From contig NZ_NFHP01000001.1 in assembly GCF_002159335.1 (NCBI RefSeq), positions 310,001-374,000 of the forward strand: DNA of 64,000 nucleotides, written 5' to 3'. Shown piece after piece: positions 9,081 to 57,041 of this stretch; position 1 is the stretch's first letter, and the number at the start of each line of letters is the position of its first letter. Below the pieces are notes generated by a model. It searched no databases. It had not been told where the DNA came from and saw nothing but the letters and a program-made list of their open reading frames with translations. The stretch is from Collinsella sp. An7. Its GTDB lineage: Bacteria; Actinomycetota; Coriobacteriia; Coriobacteriales; Coriobacteriaceae. The position numbers were made by a program, and so were the translations under genes.

Positions 9081-9125
9081 GGGTCAGTTGGGTCAGTTGG
9101 GGACGTGTTCCAACTGGCCCATGTG
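9081..9125 (+). repeat. Dispersed repeat with GGGGACGTGTTCC core (family C, copy 1)
   Basis: The core GGGGACGTGTTCC lies at 9099-9111, directly after the stop of the preceding gene, in the context GGGTCAGTTGGGGACG...AACTGGCCCAT. The same core recurs at 11525, 16254 (and its complement within that palindrome) and 63754. Confidence 0.75.
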
Positions 9126-9505: not shown

Positions 9506-9776
9506 GGGGTCCTCCTGAGGGTCGAGTCTTGCCGCCCATTGTACCGTGCCGGTCGCCCTGTCGGTCGGCGGGCTGCTGCACCGCCGAGCCTCGTTCCAGC
9601 TTGCTGCCCCATCATCAGCCTTCTCGCCCCGTCCGCTGCCCGCCCACGTTTGCTTGCCGTCCACCATCCCGCCCCGCCTGTCACCCGTCTATCTAATCGA
9701 CGCCCCACCCTGCCGCTCCGGCACCGCTCAACCCGGTATACTGCTGCCGTAGCAAAACCGGGCGAGAGGGGTGCCA

Positions 9777-11207
9777 ATGGGCGGTTTCTTTGGGGCGACG
9801 TCGCGTCGCGATGTGGTGCTCGACGTGTTTTTTGGGGTCGATTATCACTCGCATCTCGGCACGCGCCGGGCGGGCATGGTCTTCTGCGAGGGTACGGGCG
9901 GTTTTCAGAAGGAGATTCACTCCATCGAGAGTGCGCCCTTCCGTTCGCGCTTTGAGAAGGACCTCGACCGCTTTCATGGTACAAGCGGCATCGGCTGCAT
10001 ATCCGATACCGACCCGCAGCCCCTGCTCGTTCGCGGGCGCCATGGGACCTTTGCCATCACCACGGTCGGCATCATCAACAATGCCGACGAGCTCATCGAG
10101 CGGTACTTTGAGGAGGGCGGCGCCCAGTTTATGGCGATGAGCTCGGGCGAGGTTAACCACACCGAGCTCGTGGCCGCGCTCATCAACCAAAAGGACGACC
10201 TTGTTGAGGGCATCGTCTATGCGCAGCAGGTGATTGAGGGTTCGCTCACCCTGCTCGTTATGACAGAAGATGGCGTTATCTACGCTGCGCGCGACCGCAT
10301 GGGGCGCCTGCCTGTGCTCATCGGGCGCGACGCAGCGGGCGATGGCTACTGCATCTCGTTTGAGTCGTTCGTCTACCACAAGCTGGGCTACGAGGACGCC
10401 TATGAGCTGGGCTCCGGCGAGATCGTGCGCGTTACGGCCGAGGGGTACGAGAGCGTGGTGGCGCCGAGCGGCCAGATGAAGATCTGCGCCTTCTTGTGGG
10501 TGTACTACGGCTATCCCAACTCAAACTACGAGGGCATGAACGTCGAGGTCATGCGCTACCGCAACGGGCGGATTATGGCGCGCGACGAGGCGCTCGCCGG
10601 GACGCTTCCCGAGGTCGACTATGTGGCGGGCGTGCCCGACTCGGGCCTGCCGCACGCCATCGGCTACGCCAACGAGTGCGGCGCCACCTTTGCGCGGCCG
10701 TTCATTAAGTACACGCCCACCTGGTCGCGCTCGTTTATGCCGCAGAACCAGGCCGTGCGCGACCGCATCGCCGAGATGAAGCAGATTCCCGTGCCGGAGC
10801 TCATCCGCGACAAGCGCCTGCTTTTGGTTGACGACTCCATCGTGCGCGGCACGCAGCTCGGCAAGACCGTCGACTTTCTTTACAGAGCCGGCGCGTCTGA
10901 GGTGCATATGCGCTCCGCCTGCCCGCCGATTATGTTCAGCTGCAAGTATCTGAGCTTCTCGCGCGGAAAGTCCGACCAGGACCTCATTGCGCGCCGCGTG
11001 GTGCGCGAGCTCGAGGGGCCCGAGGGCGACGAGCATCTGGACGAGTACGCCGACAGCTCCACCGAGCGCGGCAAGTGCATGCTGAAGAAGATCTGCGAGC
11101 AGCTCGGCTTTGACTCGCTTGGTTATCAGAGCCTGCCGGGCATGCTCGAGGCCATCGGCATCGACCCCACGCAGGTGTGTACGTACTGCTGGAACGGCCG
11201 GGAGTAG
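9777..11207 (+). CDS. PurF-like amidophosphoribosyltransferase paralogue without the nucleophilic Cys
   Basis: A 476-residue protein with the two-domain plan of glutamine PRPP amidotransferase. The C-terminal half has the PRPP motif LLLVDDSIVRGTQ and an FARPFIKYTPTWSRSF region. The N-terminal glutaminase half starts MGGFFGATSRRD where PurF has MCGxxG, so the residue that becomes the catalytic N-terminal Cys is Gly2. The HRGQESAG motif has become HLGTRRAG. Glutamine hydrolysis is therefore unlikely; the enzyme could use free ammonia or make a different product. Similar Cys-less proteins exist in gut anaerobes, as far as I recall uncharacterised. ATG at 9777 follows GAGAGGGG. A TATACT at 9737-9742 is a candidate -10 box. 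Confidence 0.85.
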   Translation: MGGFFGATSRRDVVLDVFFGVDYHSHLGTRRAGMVFCEGTGGFQKEIHSIESAPFRSRFEKDLDRFHGTSGIGCISDTDPQPLLVRGRHGTFAITTVGIINNADELIERYFEEGGAQFMAMSSGEVNHTELVAALINQKDDLVEGIVYAQQVIEGSLTLLVMTEDGVIYAARDRMGRLPVLIGRDAAGDGYCISFESFVYHKLGYEDAYELGSGEIVRVTAEGYESVVAPSGQMKICAFLWVYYGYPNSNYEGMNVEVMRYRNGRIMARDEALAGTLPEVDYVAGVPDSGLPHAIGYANECGATFARPFIKYTPTWSRSFMPQNQAVRDRIAEMKQIPVPELIRDKRLLLVDDSIVRGTQLGKTVDFLYRAGASEVHMRSACPPIMFSCKYLSFSRGKSDQDLIARRVVRELEGPEGDEHLDEYADSSTERGKCMLKKICEQLGFDSLGYQSLPGMLEAIGIDPTQVCTYCWNGRE

Positions 11208-11221
11208 CCTTCTCGACCCGG

Positions 11222-11325
11222 CCGGCCTCCTGTAGCACCTGATCTTGGCCTTCAATCGTCGGTCGGCGCACGCAAGGCGTCCTCCCTCCTCTTTCAGGCC
11301 AATCTCGGGCACTACAGGAGGCCGG
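11222..11325 (+). repeat. Hairpin repeat family A, copy 1
   Basis: Arms 11222-11250 and 11297-11325 pair (CCGGCCTCCTGTAG with CTACAGGAGGCCGG, then inner pairs). A 46-base loop starts TTCAATCGTCGGTCGGCG and ends CCTCCCTCCTCTTTCA. GCAC occurs on the 5' side of both arms and forms a symmetric mismatch. The loop is nearly identical in a second copy at 54389-54487, whose outer stem has a different sequence. It lies immediately 3' of the PurF-like gene. Confidence 0.8.
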
Positions 11326-11445
11326 CTCCGTAGCGGAGGGGCACGCCACCTTGCCCCTCAAGCCTTCGTGCATGGCACGAAGGCCTATGCCGCCTCGCTT
11401 CACGGCAATCTGGCGCACTGCGGCGGGCCGGCTCCGTTGCTGAGA
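11326..11445 (+). repeat. Hairpin repeat family A, degenerate copy
   Basis: This follows copy 1 directly and has the same plan: GCAC and CGCCAccTTGCC on the left, GGCAAtcTGGCGCAC on the right (11404-11418). A pyrimidine-rich CCGCCTCGCTTCAC precedes the right arm. In the loop, 11362-11371 and 11375-11384 form a perfect 10-bp hairpin (GCCTTCGTGC). The outer stem pairs less well than in the other two copies. Confidence 0.55.
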
Positions 11446-11447
11446 CG

Positions 11448-11503
11448 TGACAATGGGGACAGGTTGCTTTGTCACGTGACAAAGCAACCTGTCCCCATTG
11501 TCA
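11448..11503. repeat. Perfect 56-bp palindrome (family C-associated)
   Basis: Bases 11448-11475 are the exact reverse complement of 11476-11503, with no spacer. Each arm reads TGACAATGGGGACAGG followed by TTGCTTTGTCAC. A family C core lies just downstream at 11525-11537, and the TGACAxTGGGG end motif is shared with the palindrome at 16236. Confidence 0.9.
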
Positions 11504-11517
11504 TGTGCGGCGGATGG

Positions 11518-52971: not shown

Positions 52972-53598
52972 ATGAACATCGTTCTGTTGGGGGCCCCGGG
53001 TGCCGGCAAAGGTACCGTTGCCCAGGAGCTTGTCGCCGACTTTGGGTTTGCCCACATCTCGACGGGCGACCTGCTGCGTGCTGCCGTTAAGAGCGGCTCG
53101 GAGCTCGGCGTCAAGGCCAAAAGCTACATGGACGCCGGTGAGCTCGTCCCCGACCAGCTCGTGATCGACCTCGTTAAGGAGCGTCTCCAGGCCGATGACG
53201 CCCAGAAGGGCTTTATCCTGGACGGCTTCCCGCGCAACACGGTTCAGGCCGTGACGCTCGACTCTGAGCTGGGCGCGATGGGGAACCCCCTCGATGCGGC
53301 GCTCCTCATCGACGTGGAGCCCAAAGTCATCATCGAGCGCCTTTCCAACCGCCGCACCTGCCGCGCCTGCGGCTTTACCGGCAACGCCTCGCATGAGGTC
53401 TGCCCCAACTGCGGCGGCGAAATGTACCAGCGCGATGACGACAAGCCCGAGACCATCGCCAACCGCCTCGATGTGTACGAGAAGAACACGAGCCCGCTCG
53501 TGGAGTACTATCGCGGCCAGGGGCGTCTCGACGTCGTCAACGGCGTTGGCACCATCGACGAGGTTCACGACCGTGTGAAGGAAGCGCTCGGTCTATGA
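52972..53598 (+). CDS. adk: Adenylate kinase (zinc-lid type)
   Basis: A 208-residue kinase interconverting ATP+AMP and 2 ADP. The P-loop GAPGAGKGTVAQEL, the AMP-site FAHISTGDLLRAA and DGFPRN are present. The lid carries CRACG and CPNCG, a four-Cys zinc site typical of Gram-positive and many other bacteria. AGAGGAGTCTGCC precedes the ATG. Confidence 0.97.
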   Translation: MNIVLLGAPGAGKGTVAQELVADFGFAHISTGDLLRAAVKSGSELGVKAKSYMDAGELVPDQLVIDLVKERLQADDAQKGFILDGFPRNTVQAVTLDSELGAMGNPLDAALLIDVEPKVIIERLSNRRTCRACGFTGNASHEVCPNCGGEMYQRDDDKPETIANRLDVYEKNTSPLVEYYRGQGRLDVVNGVGTIDEVHDRVKEALGL

Positions 53599-54383
53599 TC
53601 AAGATCAAGTCTGCAGAAGAGATCGAGCAGATGAAGAAGGCCGGAGCGCTGTCCAAGATGGCGCTCCGGCACGTTGGTGCGATGGTTCGTCCCGGCGTGT
53701 CGACCTTTGAGCTCGATCAGCTTGCGGAGCAGATCATCCGCATGCACGGGGGCGTGCCGACCTTTAAGGGGTACGGCGGCTTCCCAGGGTCCATCTGCGC
53801 CTCGCTCAACGAGGCCGTGGTGCACGGCATCCCCAACCCGGATATCATCCTGCGCGATGGTGACATCATCTCCATCGACACGGGTGCTACGGTTGACGGT
53901 TGGGTGGGCGATAACGCCTGGACTTTCTACGTGGGTAACCCCTCCCAGGAGGTCAAGGCCCTCTGCGAGGTCACGCTCGACTGCCTTAAGGCGGGTATCG
54001 AGCAGGCTGTGCCCGGTAACTCGGTGGGCGACATCGGCCACGCCATTCAGACCCTGGCCGAGCACCATGGCTATGGCGTGCTCCGTGAGTACGTGGGCCA
54101 TGGCGTGGGCCACGTGATGCACGAGGACCCCAATGTCCCCAACTGGGGTCGAAAGGGGAGGGGGCCGCGTCTTGCCGCCGGCATGGTCATTGCCATCGAG
54201 CCCATGATTACGCTCGGTACGCACCACGTGAGCGTGGGTCCGGACGGCTGGCTCGTTACCACCGATGACGGTCTGCCTGCCGCGCACTACGAGAACACCA
54301 TCGCGATTACCAACGATGGCCCGGTCATCCTCACACAGGATGCGCAGGGGCCGTGGTGTTCGCTCCAAGGCGGCGTCATGTAA
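53595..54383 (+). CDS. map: Methionine aminopeptidase type I
   Basis: A 262-residue metalloenzyme removing the initiator Met. The metal ligands are visible in SIDTGATVDGWVGDNAWTF (two Asp), GHGVGHVMHEDP (His), IAIEPM (Glu) and HYENTIAI (Glu). The start overlaps the adk stop by four bases (ATGA). There is no N-terminal SH3/zinc-finger extension. infA, the usual next gene, is displaced by the AT-rich island. Confidence 0.97.
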   Translation: MIKIKSAEEIEQMKKAGALSKMALRHVGAMVRPGVSTFELDQLAEQIIRMHGGVPTFKGYGGFPGSICASLNEAVVHGIPNPDIILRDGDIISIDTGATVDGWVGDNAWTFYVGNPSQEVKALCEVTLDCLKAGIEQAVPGNSVGDIGHAIQTLAEHHGYGVLREYVGHGVGHVMHEDPNVPNWGRKGRGPRLAAGMVIAIEPMITLGTHHVSVGPDGWLVTTDDGLPAAHYENTIAITNDGPVILTQDAQGPWCSLQGGVM

Positions 54384-54388
54384 GCTGC

Positions 54389-54487
54389 GCGGGCCCCAGG
54401 CACCGCATCTTCGCCTTCAATCGTCGGTCGGCGCCCTAAGGCGCCCTCCCTCCTCTTTCAGGCGAATCTGCGGCACCTGGGGCCCGC
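54389..54487 (+). repeat. Hairpin repeat family A, copy 2
   Basis: Outer arms GCGGGCCCCAGG (from 54389) and CCTGGGGCCCGC (to 54487) pair. Inner pairs CCGCA and TTCGCC pair with TGCGG and GGCGAA. GCAC lies on both arms. The 45-base loop (54416-54460) is almost identical to that of copy 1 at 11251, while the outer stem is unrelated in sequence. It starts six bases after the map stop. Confidence 0.82.
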
Positions 54488-54838
54488 TCATTTCGCGTGA
54501 TTGCATTTTGGAACACTGTTGTTATGTGTCATACAGAAGGTGCGAAAGCCCATCGGTGAGTGAAAACGCTACTATCTAGGATTGAGGAAAGGTTGCCGGT
54601 TATTGCGGACTAGGGTTGACAAATAATAGTAGCATCGAGGAAAGGGTGACGACGAAGACGCATTTTGTCCGGTGTGTTATATTGGTTGAAAGAGAGACAT
54701 CAACCTGAGTCGGCATACCTTACCGAACAGATTCCCAGTCCATTAATATCCATATTATATCTTTGACCCACTGAGCTAACTATAAATTAATATTTAGTCA
54801 AAAATCATGATGAATACTTATAAAATATAAGACTAACT

Positions 54839-55255
54839 TCAGTTAATGAATTCTGTAACATATCTAGATAAACAAATTAGATAATCCCTAAATAATAAGT
54901 TCTTTTCTATCAAGTCTGAGTAATTTAAACCTGCCAGAAGCCTTGCTTCGAGATAAAGTCGATTACTATTCGAACAGAGGTAAAGCGATTTAGTCTCTAC
55001 TACGAGATATACTTCCTCTTCGGCAGGAGCCGAAGCGTAAAGAGGTACATTTTGGGAGCAACGTGGAAACTCCAGATATGTAAAACACATATCACGCGGA
55101 TGCAAGTGAAGCTTCTCATTTAGCAGAGAGTGCGCTACGTTATATTCCAACATAGACTGCCAAGGCTCGTTGAACTTCTTATCAAAACTTGAAAAGAATC
55201 TGTATCTGCTCTCTAGGAGTTTCATTATGATATTTAATGAATTCATGTGATACAC
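54839..55255 (-). CDS. Hypothetical protein of the AT-rich island
   Basis: Up to 138 residues, codon use AT-rich and unlike its neighbours. No signal peptide or membrane segment. The sequence is moderately charged, with a helical C-terminus (LYLEARLLAGLNYSDLIEKN). I do not recognise a family. The start is uncertain: GTG 55255, ATG 55246 and a further ATG inside (MKLLESRYRFF) are in frame and none has a clear ribosome binding site. It could be a fragment of a longer protein. Confidence 0.45.
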   Translation of the reverse strand: MYHMNSLNIIMKLLESRYRFFSSFDKKFNEPWQSMLEYNVAHSLLNEKLHLHPRDMCFTYLEFPRCSQNVPLYASAPAEEEVYLVVETKSLYLCSNSNRLYLEARLLAGLNYSDLIEKNLLFRDYLICLSRYVTEFIN

Positions 55256-55287
55256 CGCATTTGGTTCTTAAATTGATTTATCAAAAA

Positions 55288-55327
55288 ACTCCTGACAACC
55301 CAAAAATATAAACGAGTTGTCAGGAGT
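55288..55327 (-). terminator. Intrinsic terminator of the secreted-protein gene
   Basis: On the minus strand ACTCCTGACAAC pairs perfectly with GTTGTCAGGAGT (12 bp) and is followed by TTTTTT. It lies 34 bases after the stop of the gene ending at 55362. Confidence 0.88.
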
Positions 55328-55361
55328 CAGACCCTTGATTAAAAGAATGCAAAATTAAAAA

Positions 55362-55952
55362 TTAACCTAGAACATGGATAATCCCATGGTCATTTATGAA
55401 TGATAGCCAACCATTTAATAAGTCATATCCTTTCAAGTTCTCTGTTCGTAGATAAACTTGGTCAATATTGTCAGGCATTGAGAATCTAGTGACTTCAAAA
55501 TAGCCACTCGTTGCTGCACTGACGGGATAATAATAGGGAGAACCGCCCTTGTATAGATCACAATATGTCGTTGTGTCGATTAAGGAGGGCGATTTAACGA
55601 TAGCTCTGGTTAGTGAAAATTGATTAAAATAGAGTGATCCTTGCCAGGTTAGTTGTAAACTATAGTTACCAATGGGGCCACTTCTAAATACCGCACCATG
55701 AACACTAGCTACGCCACTTCTGGGTTCGATGGAAGTCCTATTAAGTAAAGAGCTGGCTTCTTGCGAGTTGATGAACTCTTCAAATGAAAGGTCAGATTCA
55801 ATTACGGGAATTAGTACCTCAATGGTTGAATAATCGTTTGAGTCATTGAGGCGGCTTTGTAATGTCTCATTTTGTGCGTATGCAACAGTAGGTAAGAGCA
55901 TGAGAAGGATAGAAAGGATGCCTGCTAGTAACCAAGTAGGTTTACGAGTCAT
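55362..55952 (-). CDS. Secreted protein with Sec signal peptide, unknown function
   Basis: A 196-residue protein. MTRKPTWLLAGILSILLMLL, ending PTVAYA before Gln27, is a textbook signal peptide with cleavage after Ala26. The mature part has an acidic first section and a beta-rich, Tyr/Phe-rich second half (SYSLQLTW-like and YFNQFSLT segments), with one Cys. The start ATG 55952 follows GCTAGGGAGGTTGAC. It has its own terminator. I cannot name the family. Its AT-rich codon use marks it as foreign to the surrounding genome. Confidence 0.72.
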   Translation of the reverse strand: MTRKPTWLLAGILSILLMLLPTVAYAQNETLQSRLNDSNDYSTIEVLIPVIESDLSFEEFINSQEASSLLNRTSIEPRSGVASVHGAVFRSGPIGNYSLQLTWQGSLYFNQFSLTRAIVKSPSLIDTTTYCDLYKGGSPYYYPVSAATSGYFEVTRFSMPDNIDQVYLRTENLKGYDLLNGWLSFINDHGIIHVLG

Positions 55953-56203
55953 GTCAACCTCCCTAGCTTTGAACCTGACACAATTATACTGGTGAGTAGC
56001 AAAGCAAAGCCGTTTGAAATAACTTGAATGGATAATTCTCCTAGCTATTAACCAGTTACTATCAAATTGAGGACCAGAGACAAAGAAAAGGTCTAAAGCT
56101 TTTAAAATGCGCGATTTTGCCACATGTATTTGTAAAGTGGATACGATATTTCCGCGCTCAATCAGGCCGCTCTAAGGGAAAAGACTTCGTGTATTACCAT
56201 GTT

Positions 56204-56410
56204 ATGCGTGTGAAACCGCTCAATGGATATAAGCTGTCGTTGTGGTTTGAGGACGGATTGAGTGACGTCTACGATCTCTCACCCTTGATCGGAAAGGGTG
56301 TATTCCAAAAGCTTGCGGACAAGATAGAGTTCAACAAGGTCTCAACGGACGGATTTACTGCGGTATGGTCCTGCGGTGTGGATATCGCTCCCGAGAGCTG
56401 TACGAGGGAA
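56204..56410 (+). pseudogene. DUF2442-like protein, frameshifted
   Basis: [34 protein letters not shown] and [12 protein letters not shown] follow the small DUF2442 fold. After VDIAPE the frame runs on as SCTREVW, which does not fit. In the next frame the bases read [12 protein letters not shown], the expected DUF2442 ending, so one base appears lost near 56395-56400 (GAGAGCTG for GAGGAGCTG). DUF2442 proteins often accompany DUF4160 partners, but none is seen here. The open frame continues in phase into infA, which is probably accidental. Confidence 0.5.
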
Positions 56411-56563
56411 GTCTGGCCGCTCTGCTTGGGTGCGTTTCGGCGGCCGACCCTCCGACAGATACACGCTGTCCATTTATGGAGTCGATACGAAAAATCCACG
56501 ATAGCGCGCCTTGGTGCGCTATCATATGCTGCTGCTGTAAGTTGGCGAGAGAAAGATGTGCCT

Positions 56564-56782
56564 GTGAAGAAGGAAGATGCCATCGAGCTTGAGGGCAAGG
56601 TAACCGAGCCGCTGCCCAACGCCATGTTCCGTGTCGAGCTGGAGAACGGCGCGTCCGTGCTCTGCTCCATCTCGGGCAAGATTCGCATGAACTACATTCG
56701 CATCCTTCCGGGCGACCGCGTGGTGGTGGAGATTTCTCCCTACGACCTCACCCGTGGGCGCATCACCTATCGCTACAAGTAA
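56564..56782 (+). CDS. infA: Translation initiation factor IF-1
   Basis: A 72-residue OB-fold protein: [63 protein letters not shown] 56564 gives the standard length and lies eight bases after GAGAGAAAG; GTG 56558 is an alternative. An upstream 8-bp inverted repeat GATAGCGC (56500-56507 with 56516-56523) precedes TATCAT-like sequence and may mark its promoter, needed because map is cut off by the island. Confidence 0.95.
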
Positions 56783-56912
56783 GCGGCGCCGCGCCGTGCT
56801 CCCGGTCGCTCAAGCCGGGGGAGGGGCGTGTCGTATCAGCCGGTTATTCACGTCTGCGGCTGGACGAGTAGATAGTAGGTATACGTTTGAGCACAACTGA
56901 GAGGATCGCATC

Positions 56913-57026
56913 ATGAAGGTACGTCCTTCCGTCAAGAAGATGTGCGACAAGTGCAAGATCATTAGGCGCCATGGCAAGGTGCTCGTAATCTGCGAGAACC
57001 CGCGCCACAAGCAGCGTCAGGGTTAA
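56913..57026 (+). CDS. rpmJ: 50S ribosomal protein L36
   Basis: 37 residues, [20 protein letters not shown] and [11 protein letters not shown], with the CxxC...C..H zinc site of the standard L36. GAGAGGATCGC precedes the ATG. Confidence 0.96.
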
Positions 57027-57041
57027 AGAGAGGAGACTACG

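Follow-up and report, generated by a model that had tools for sequence, protein, structure and literature searches.

Just behind a purF-like gene of Collinsella sp. An7 lies an imperfect palindrome whose stems differ in sequence from those of a second copy at 54.4 kb of the same window (the whole stretch of 64,000 nucleotides that was analysed) and still pair. The question raised by this locus is what such a repeat is, and whether its paired stems reflect selection on an RNA structure or the habits of a mobile element. The sequence-only reading of this DNA had listed a non-autonomous mobile element, a REP-like structure and a small RNA as candidates. Our analysis addressed the anatomy of the repeat, its placement and distribution, and its presence or absence at corresponding sites of related genomes.

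Anatomy of the hairpin family

The sequence and the order of parts given by the sequence-only reading for 11222-11445 and for 54.4 kb were found as described. A 16-base piece of the core, TTCAATCGTCGGTCGG, occurs with up to two mismatches at 21 places of the genome, compared with one for the reversed control. A covariance model built from twenty aligned copies of the Collinsella sp. An7 genome returned 59 matches there at E <= 0.1, several of them in tandem, and placed both window copies and the degenerate neighbour of copy 1 in one family (Table 1). None of 200 dinucleotide shuffles folded as well as copy 1 or copy 2. The degenerate neighbour has a weak fold of its own (z = -2.5) and is a weak but real match in the own-genome search, while it was absent from the listing of a smaller mixed search with the same model. 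The window repeat is thus a genuine member of an apparently undescribed family of hairpin repeats of about 110 bases.

Table 1. Copies of the hairpin, their parts and the genes preceding them (window coordinates)
Feature	Position	Strand	Remarks
Copy 1, whole model match	11214..11326	+	123.8 bits; 3' of purF
Copy 1, outer rod hairpin	11220-11327	+	z -7.5 as RNA
Copy 1, outer stem, 5' arm	11220..11235	+	pairs with 11312-11327; from the fold
Copy 1, outer stem, 3' arm	11312..11327	+	from the fold
Copy 1, CA of the symmetric CA/CA internal loop	11236..11237	+	partner 11310-11311; tandem U-G wobbles on the other strand
Copy 1, middle stem, 5' arm	11238..11242	+	partner 11305-11309
Copy 1, lower tandem mismatch TC	11243..11244	+	partner TC 11303-11304
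Copy 1, inner stem, 5' arm	11245..11251	+	partner 11296-11302
Copy 1, mismatch ladder, conserved left arm TC-AA-TC-G-TC-GG-TC	11252..11264	+	
Copy 1, apical hairpin	11265..11282	+	differs from copy to copy
Copy 1, mismatch ladder, conserved right arm TC-CC-TC-C-TC-TT-TC	11283..11295	+	
Degenerate second copy, tandem to copy 1	11320..11427	+	39.5 bits, E 3.5e-5; G000:C1:321320-321427
Copy 2	54379..54490	+	120.4 bits, z -9.1; 3' of map; stop TAA 54381-54383 inside the model start
purF-like gene (amidophosphoribosyltransferase)	9771..11207	+	ORF; ends 12 nt before the copy 1 outer stem
map (methionyl aminopeptidase)	53595..54383	+	ORF; ends just before copy 2

From the outside inward, each copy consists of an outer stem, a CA/CA internal loop, five base pairs, a TC/TC (or TC/CC) mismatch, seven base pairs, the two arms of a ladder and an apical hairpin. 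The conserved core of about 80 nt starts with GCAC and is enclosed by an outer stem that varies between copies; the GCAC on each side forms the symmetric CA/CA loop. The ladder arms, TCAATCGTCGGTC and TCCCTCCTCTTTC, face each other, and their pairs are interrupted by tandem TC/TC mismatches. This region had been described as a loop with an inner hairpin. The apical hairpin is indeed present, but the supposed loop is a paired region broken by symmetric mismatches. The ladder pairs AA/TT, G/C and GG/CC are formed in 102-106 of 106 copies, and the fourth TC/TC changes jointly to GC/GC (44 versus 45 copies, few of them mixed), indicating that the ladder positions oppose each other. These counts make the first three mismatches look more constant than they are, because most of the 106 copies were selected with a pattern, or with a model derived from copies so selected; C. 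aerofaciens copies with largely paired ladder arms occur.

The covariation between paired positions, which the sequence-only reading had deduced from two loci, is strong across the family. The consensus structure of the twenty aligned copies has 30 pairs, 23 of which show compensatory change, a result that none of 500 shuffles reached. The covariation score is 0.539, against 0.188 for shuffled alignments and about 0.1 when the partner columns were slid. Since the family is not confined to the copies first noticed and its stems do change in a compensatory manner, neither of the two outcomes named beforehand as telling against that reading, a search returning those copies only or a lack of compensatory stem changes elsewhere, occurred.

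Placement and distribution

The remark that both window loci lie just 3' of a plus-strand gene, purF and map, proved to hold for the family in general. Among 65 copies outside the annotated C. aerofaciens record, 50 start no more than 14 nt from a sense stop codon and 52 within 45 nt, the two additional ones at 32-34 nt, whereas only 2-6 of 65 shifted control positions follow a sense stop. This stop-codon test replaced an earlier orientation count based on ORFs, whose outcome was distorted by the antisense ORFs of G+C-rich DNA. Of the 12 matches in the annotated C. aerofaciens record of 900 kb, 11 lie behind a gene and in its orientation, some immediately and others at a distance of about 31-37 nt, and the preceding genes include amtB, cysS, hisF, lacB, proB, map and rpoC; the sole exception is an antisense copy between copA and the next gene. 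The map orthologue is annotated as such in this record and has an element copy there too. The name purF comes from our recognition of the translation, and the genes at the other Collinsella sp. An7 comparison sites are likewise what we take them to be from their translations, except those annotated in C. aerofaciens.

In the copies with a spacing of about 34 nt, a small hairpin fills the gap, and the flanks read CGACGCTGCG and CTCGCTGA. The copies of Eggerthellaceae type that were examined have much the same composite of hairpin and rod as these C. aerofaciens copies. At four loci from another family of the order (L206, L208-L210), the rod is preceded by a hairpin whose foot is GTTCCG / CGGAAC and by the CGACGCTGCG spacer.

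Several observations concern the surroundings of the copies. Along the single contig of one genome (G052), the element is mostly in plus orientation below 1.18 Mb and above 2.0 Mb and in minus orientation from 1.2 to 1.95 Mb, the pattern to be expected of an element aligned with the direction of genes and replication. Second kinds of repeat, TGGGTCA-TTGGGGACGTGTTCC-TGACCCA and GTGACAATGGGGACAGGTTGC palindromes, lie at window positions 9099, 11525, 16253, 16294 and 63754, with a further palindrome of these kinds at 11446-11505; such a repeat occurs within 250 nt on the 3' side of 14 of 30 family copies, and on the 5' side of none. The interval between map and rpsM (54493-57041) comprises about 2.5 kb of partly A+T-rich DNA, where C. 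aerofaciens has only infA and rpmJ.

Matches were found in 56 of 67 Coriobacteriaceae genomes, with up to 34 per genome apart from Collinsella sp. An7, which has 55 (E <= 1e-4) against 0-5 in eight congeners. In 396 genomes sampled evenly over the phylum, for which few candidates per genome were scored and counts are consequently low, matches were confined to the order and included two other families; the third family of this sample is presumably Eggerthellaceae, judging from general knowledge of the order. The matches listed in the named scan came from Collinsella, Enorma, an Atopobiaceae MAG, an unclassified Coriobacteriaceae MAG and at least three Sphingomonadales.

The Sphingomonadales core copies score 38-40 bits, occur once per genome and are rare in their order (2/199). 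They are probably akin to the Coriobacteriales family, a kinship that is only probable because these copies were picked by an exact pattern. In two Novosphingobium genomes the core is part of an element of 272 bp whose terminal inverted repeats measure about 35 bp. The inverted ends are CTAGAGCCAGATGACATCAGATTGCACCGCCG (L114 5752-6024 and L151 2165-2439), and an Erythrobacter locus (L144) holds a related stretch of 216 bp. Conserved terminal inverted repeats, as expected of a MITE, were found only in this 272-bp element; in the family at large the outer stems differ between copies, so that its terminal inverted repeats are unlike conserved MITE ends. A comparison of the Novosphingobium terminal repeats with plasmids gave no informative match.

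Carriage by phages or plasmids was also considered. The exact pattern is absent from viral contigs, no phage record with the element was found, and four matches of a relaxed pattern in viral contigs had neither the structure nor a model score and are attributed to chance. The sole plasmid match was the 900-kb Collinsella record.

Gains, shared sites and the cysS-rlmB locus

Thirteen element sites of Collinsella sp. An7 were compared with the corresponding sites of its congeners. None of the sampled congeners has the element at map, gyrB-gyrA, pheS-pheT, ftsZ, purF or certain other sites. At gyrB-gyrA and pheS-pheT it is missing from all eight congeners, whose junctions measure from a few to some tens of bases; these short, element-free junctions indicate that the element was gained in Collinsella sp. 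An7. The purF gene gave a single match in 28 of 67 relatives (E <= 1e-100), and the element follows it in 2 of these 28 genomes, an ordinary terminator hairpin taking that place in several others. In two relatives (L244, L251), a different large imperfect palindrome, GGGCTCACCGGGCATCTCGGTG ... CACCGAGATGCCCGGTGAGCC, lies just 3' of purF. No target-site duplication was seen at the filled and empty pairs, many of which are adjoined by other repeats.

Other sites are held in common with congeners, namely those at asnS (four), a permease-like gene (three) and an ABC-type gene (two). At asnS, two congeners carry a quite different copy at the same position together with the 3' remnant of an older copy, and in one of the two (G006) a closely similar outer stem occurs both there and at the ABC-type gene. 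The map, hisF, gyrB and pheS sites are also occupied in different genera, and those at map, hisF and the copA side are common to genera in the same orientation. Such cross-genus sites may reflect either old retention or repeated gain.

At cysS-rlmB, two genomes of the C. aerofaciens group have one element followed by a plain terminator, GACCGCCCGA-ATTAATATTCAT-GGGCGGTC. A relative shares the first element, but in its terminator an 81-nt segment consisting of exactly the core takes the place of the 12-nt loop ATTAATATTCAT, with the stem and most of the downstream flank retained. In two other genomes this core lies in the reverse orientation inside a nearly identical stem, and two further genomes are without the stretch between the two CCGACC repeats. 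At cysS-rlmB the terminator stem of the host thus serves as the outer stem, and loop replacement is one way in which unrelated outer stems can still pair. The sequence-only reading had regarded differing but pairing stems as the mark of selection on structure; this stands as far as the covariation goes, but not for the outer stem, which at this locus is a pre-existing terminator stem round an inserted core. Stems that differ and yet pair are the usual sign of a selected RNA structure, and our comparison advises caution, as they can also arise when an element enters an existing hairpin.

One may go further and regard the core as a parasite of hairpin loops, which takes the place of loops in hairpins already present, mainly those of intrinsic terminators, and spreads in this way. 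In that case the host's terminator stem would become the outer stem of the element, and three features would be explained at once without compensatory mutation: the location 3' of genes, the preference for the sense orientation, and outer stems that are unrelated yet always paired. We put this proposal forward tentatively. The replaced terminator loop is documented at one locus only, and in many copies the outer stems have a family resemblance of their own (CGGCTTTCCCAGG and the like), suggesting that the outer stem often travels with the core.

Interpretation and comparison with known systems

Given the family, its structure, its position, its gains and one replaced terminator loop, we consider that the repeats are non-autonomous, REP-like mobile hairpin elements of Coriobacteriales, with a probability of roughly 60%. 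The lineage-specific gains fit this candidate of the sequence-only reading. The element is gained behind stop codons, mostly in sense; the places it enters include junctions within operons and, clearly at one locus, the loop of an intrinsic terminator that was already there. It may move as single-stranded DNA, through a single-strand enzyme acting in trans, or by template switching between palindromes. Transcribed with the upstream gene, it would form a rigid rod hairpin beside the terminating ribosome and, by analogy with REP and BIME sequences, would likely shield the upstream message from 3' exonucleases and alter expression across the junction. Points against this reading are that neither a transposase tied to the family nor a target-site duplication was found in the comparisons made, that the terminator-loop case is a single one, and that the sites common to genera in the same orientation also fit old, retained, functional copies.

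Such copies would be expected of a cis-acting RNA element of 3' untranslated regions, vertically inherited and kept by selection on the sense RNA rather than primarily mobile. The strong covariation, the conserved ladder letters, the map and hisF sites and the tight placement after stop codons agree with this explanation, which we nevertheless regard as unlikely. Selection on the sense RNA should favour G-U pairs, but an excess of G-U over A-C, sought in the sense-strand stems, was not found (40 versus 60 cells). On the complementary strand, the mismatch positions become tandem GA/GA and UG/UG, and this strand folds better by about 12 kcal/mol on average, and in 104 of 105 copies; DNA parameters gave a similar result. 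The inverted core at cysS, the antisense copy beside copA and the recent gains within operons also speak against the explanation. Selection on the sense RNA alone is therefore not supported by the sequences, and the element may act as DNA, on either strand, or as the complementary RNA.

The mismatched hairpin, its place 3' of genes and its lack of autonomy would also suit a classical REP moved in trans by a RAYT (Y1 HUH transposase), and Y1_Tnp is present in 55 of the 67 family genomes. The suggested link with REP-type transposases was not borne out, however, as two genomes (G010, G012) hold 18-21 copies without a Y1_Tnp match and four (G001, G005, G041, G061) hold Y1_Tnp without copies. Across the 67 genomes and the flanks of the own Y1_Tnp gene, no transposase tied to the family was found; co-occurrence in Coriobacteriaceae is only loose, and no RAYT gene flanked by the family repeat was found in the Collinsella sp. 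An7 genome. On the flanks of its only Y1_Tnp (RAYT-like) gene (L064 1420-2235; G000:C12:176535-176864) lies an imperfect TTTGGGGACGGGTACAAATTG / CCCGTCCCC repeat, similar to the second repeat kind and not to the hairpin family. A conserved tetranucleotide tag of the GTAG or CGTC type was not found in the 25 nt 5' or the 40 nt 3' of 80 copies. A dedicated RAYT as the putative mover is not supported by these patterns, and we rate this explanation as distinctly improbable.

Least probable of all is an ordinary family of intrinsic terminators with an elaborate loop, since, although the element occupies the places of relatives' terminator hairpins (purF, ftsZ, asnS), has a T-rich tail behind the outer stem in some copies and uses a terminator stem at cysS, most copies have no T-run directly after the stem, and a plain terminator role fits badly with the copies within the gyrB-gyrA, pheS-pheT and hisF-hisI junctions, where full termination would be costly.

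If the repeats are indeed mobile hairpins, a large family of them is added to the few non-coding elements described from Collinsella and its relatives, which are common in the gut. Core genes, among them gyrB, rpoC, ftsZ, map and pheS, have the elements at their 3' ends, and the filled and empty sites provide natural before-and-after pairs for testing the effect of a post-stop hairpin on an operon.

Rfam searches gave no match in the window and nothing near a gathering score in four loci at E <= 1. A literature search on the sequence and on Collinsella or Coriobacteriia repeats and motifs, covering the main texts of the motif scans, found no description of the family. ERIC, RIME, Correia/NEMIS and other palindromic repeats of 100-150 bp are intergenic, transcribed and gene-less, with conserved terminal arms. 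Our family shares their size class and their nature as intergenic palindromes without a gene; unlike theirs, its arms vary and pair anew around a conserved inner core. IS1397 and ISKpn1 are insertion sequences that enter the loops of palindromic units, which recalls the insertion into a pre-existing hairpin loop at cysS-rlmB, although the 81-nt core is gene-less and replaces the loop. The evidence for the family is of the same kind as that for the candidate structured RNAs described in the main texts of a human-microbiome scan (PMC8040213) and of a set of 104 motifs (PMC2864571). The one Collinsella motif named in the main text of the former, of 51 bp, lies upstream of the L7/L12 gene, whereas our family lies behind genes; as the comparison covers main texts, overlap with an unnamed entry in the supplementary alignments of either scan is possible.

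The closest parallel is offered by the REP, PU and BIME sequences of enterobacteria and pseudomonads, with their RAYT transposases; in the GTAG and CGTC super-families, a palindrome of 20-40 bp has an unpaired GTAG or CGTC tag at one end (PMC3733652, PMC2817692, PMC3116915). Like these, our elements are dispersed non-coding palindromes in tens of copies and mosaic arrays, situated mainly downstream of coding regions, probably transcribed and suspected to be non-autonomous mobile DNA. They differ in length (about 108 nt for the whole hairpin, against a short-stemmed palindrome of 20-40 bp), in their rod shape with tandem mismatches arranged as an ordered ladder, in that no GTAG or CGTC tag and no tied RAYT were found, and in an outer stem whose sequence is not conserved; one subfamily has the CGACGCTGCG / CTCGCTGA flanks. 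REP/BIME is thus the nearest known kind, although length, tag, mismatch ladder and stem behaviour set the family apart from it.
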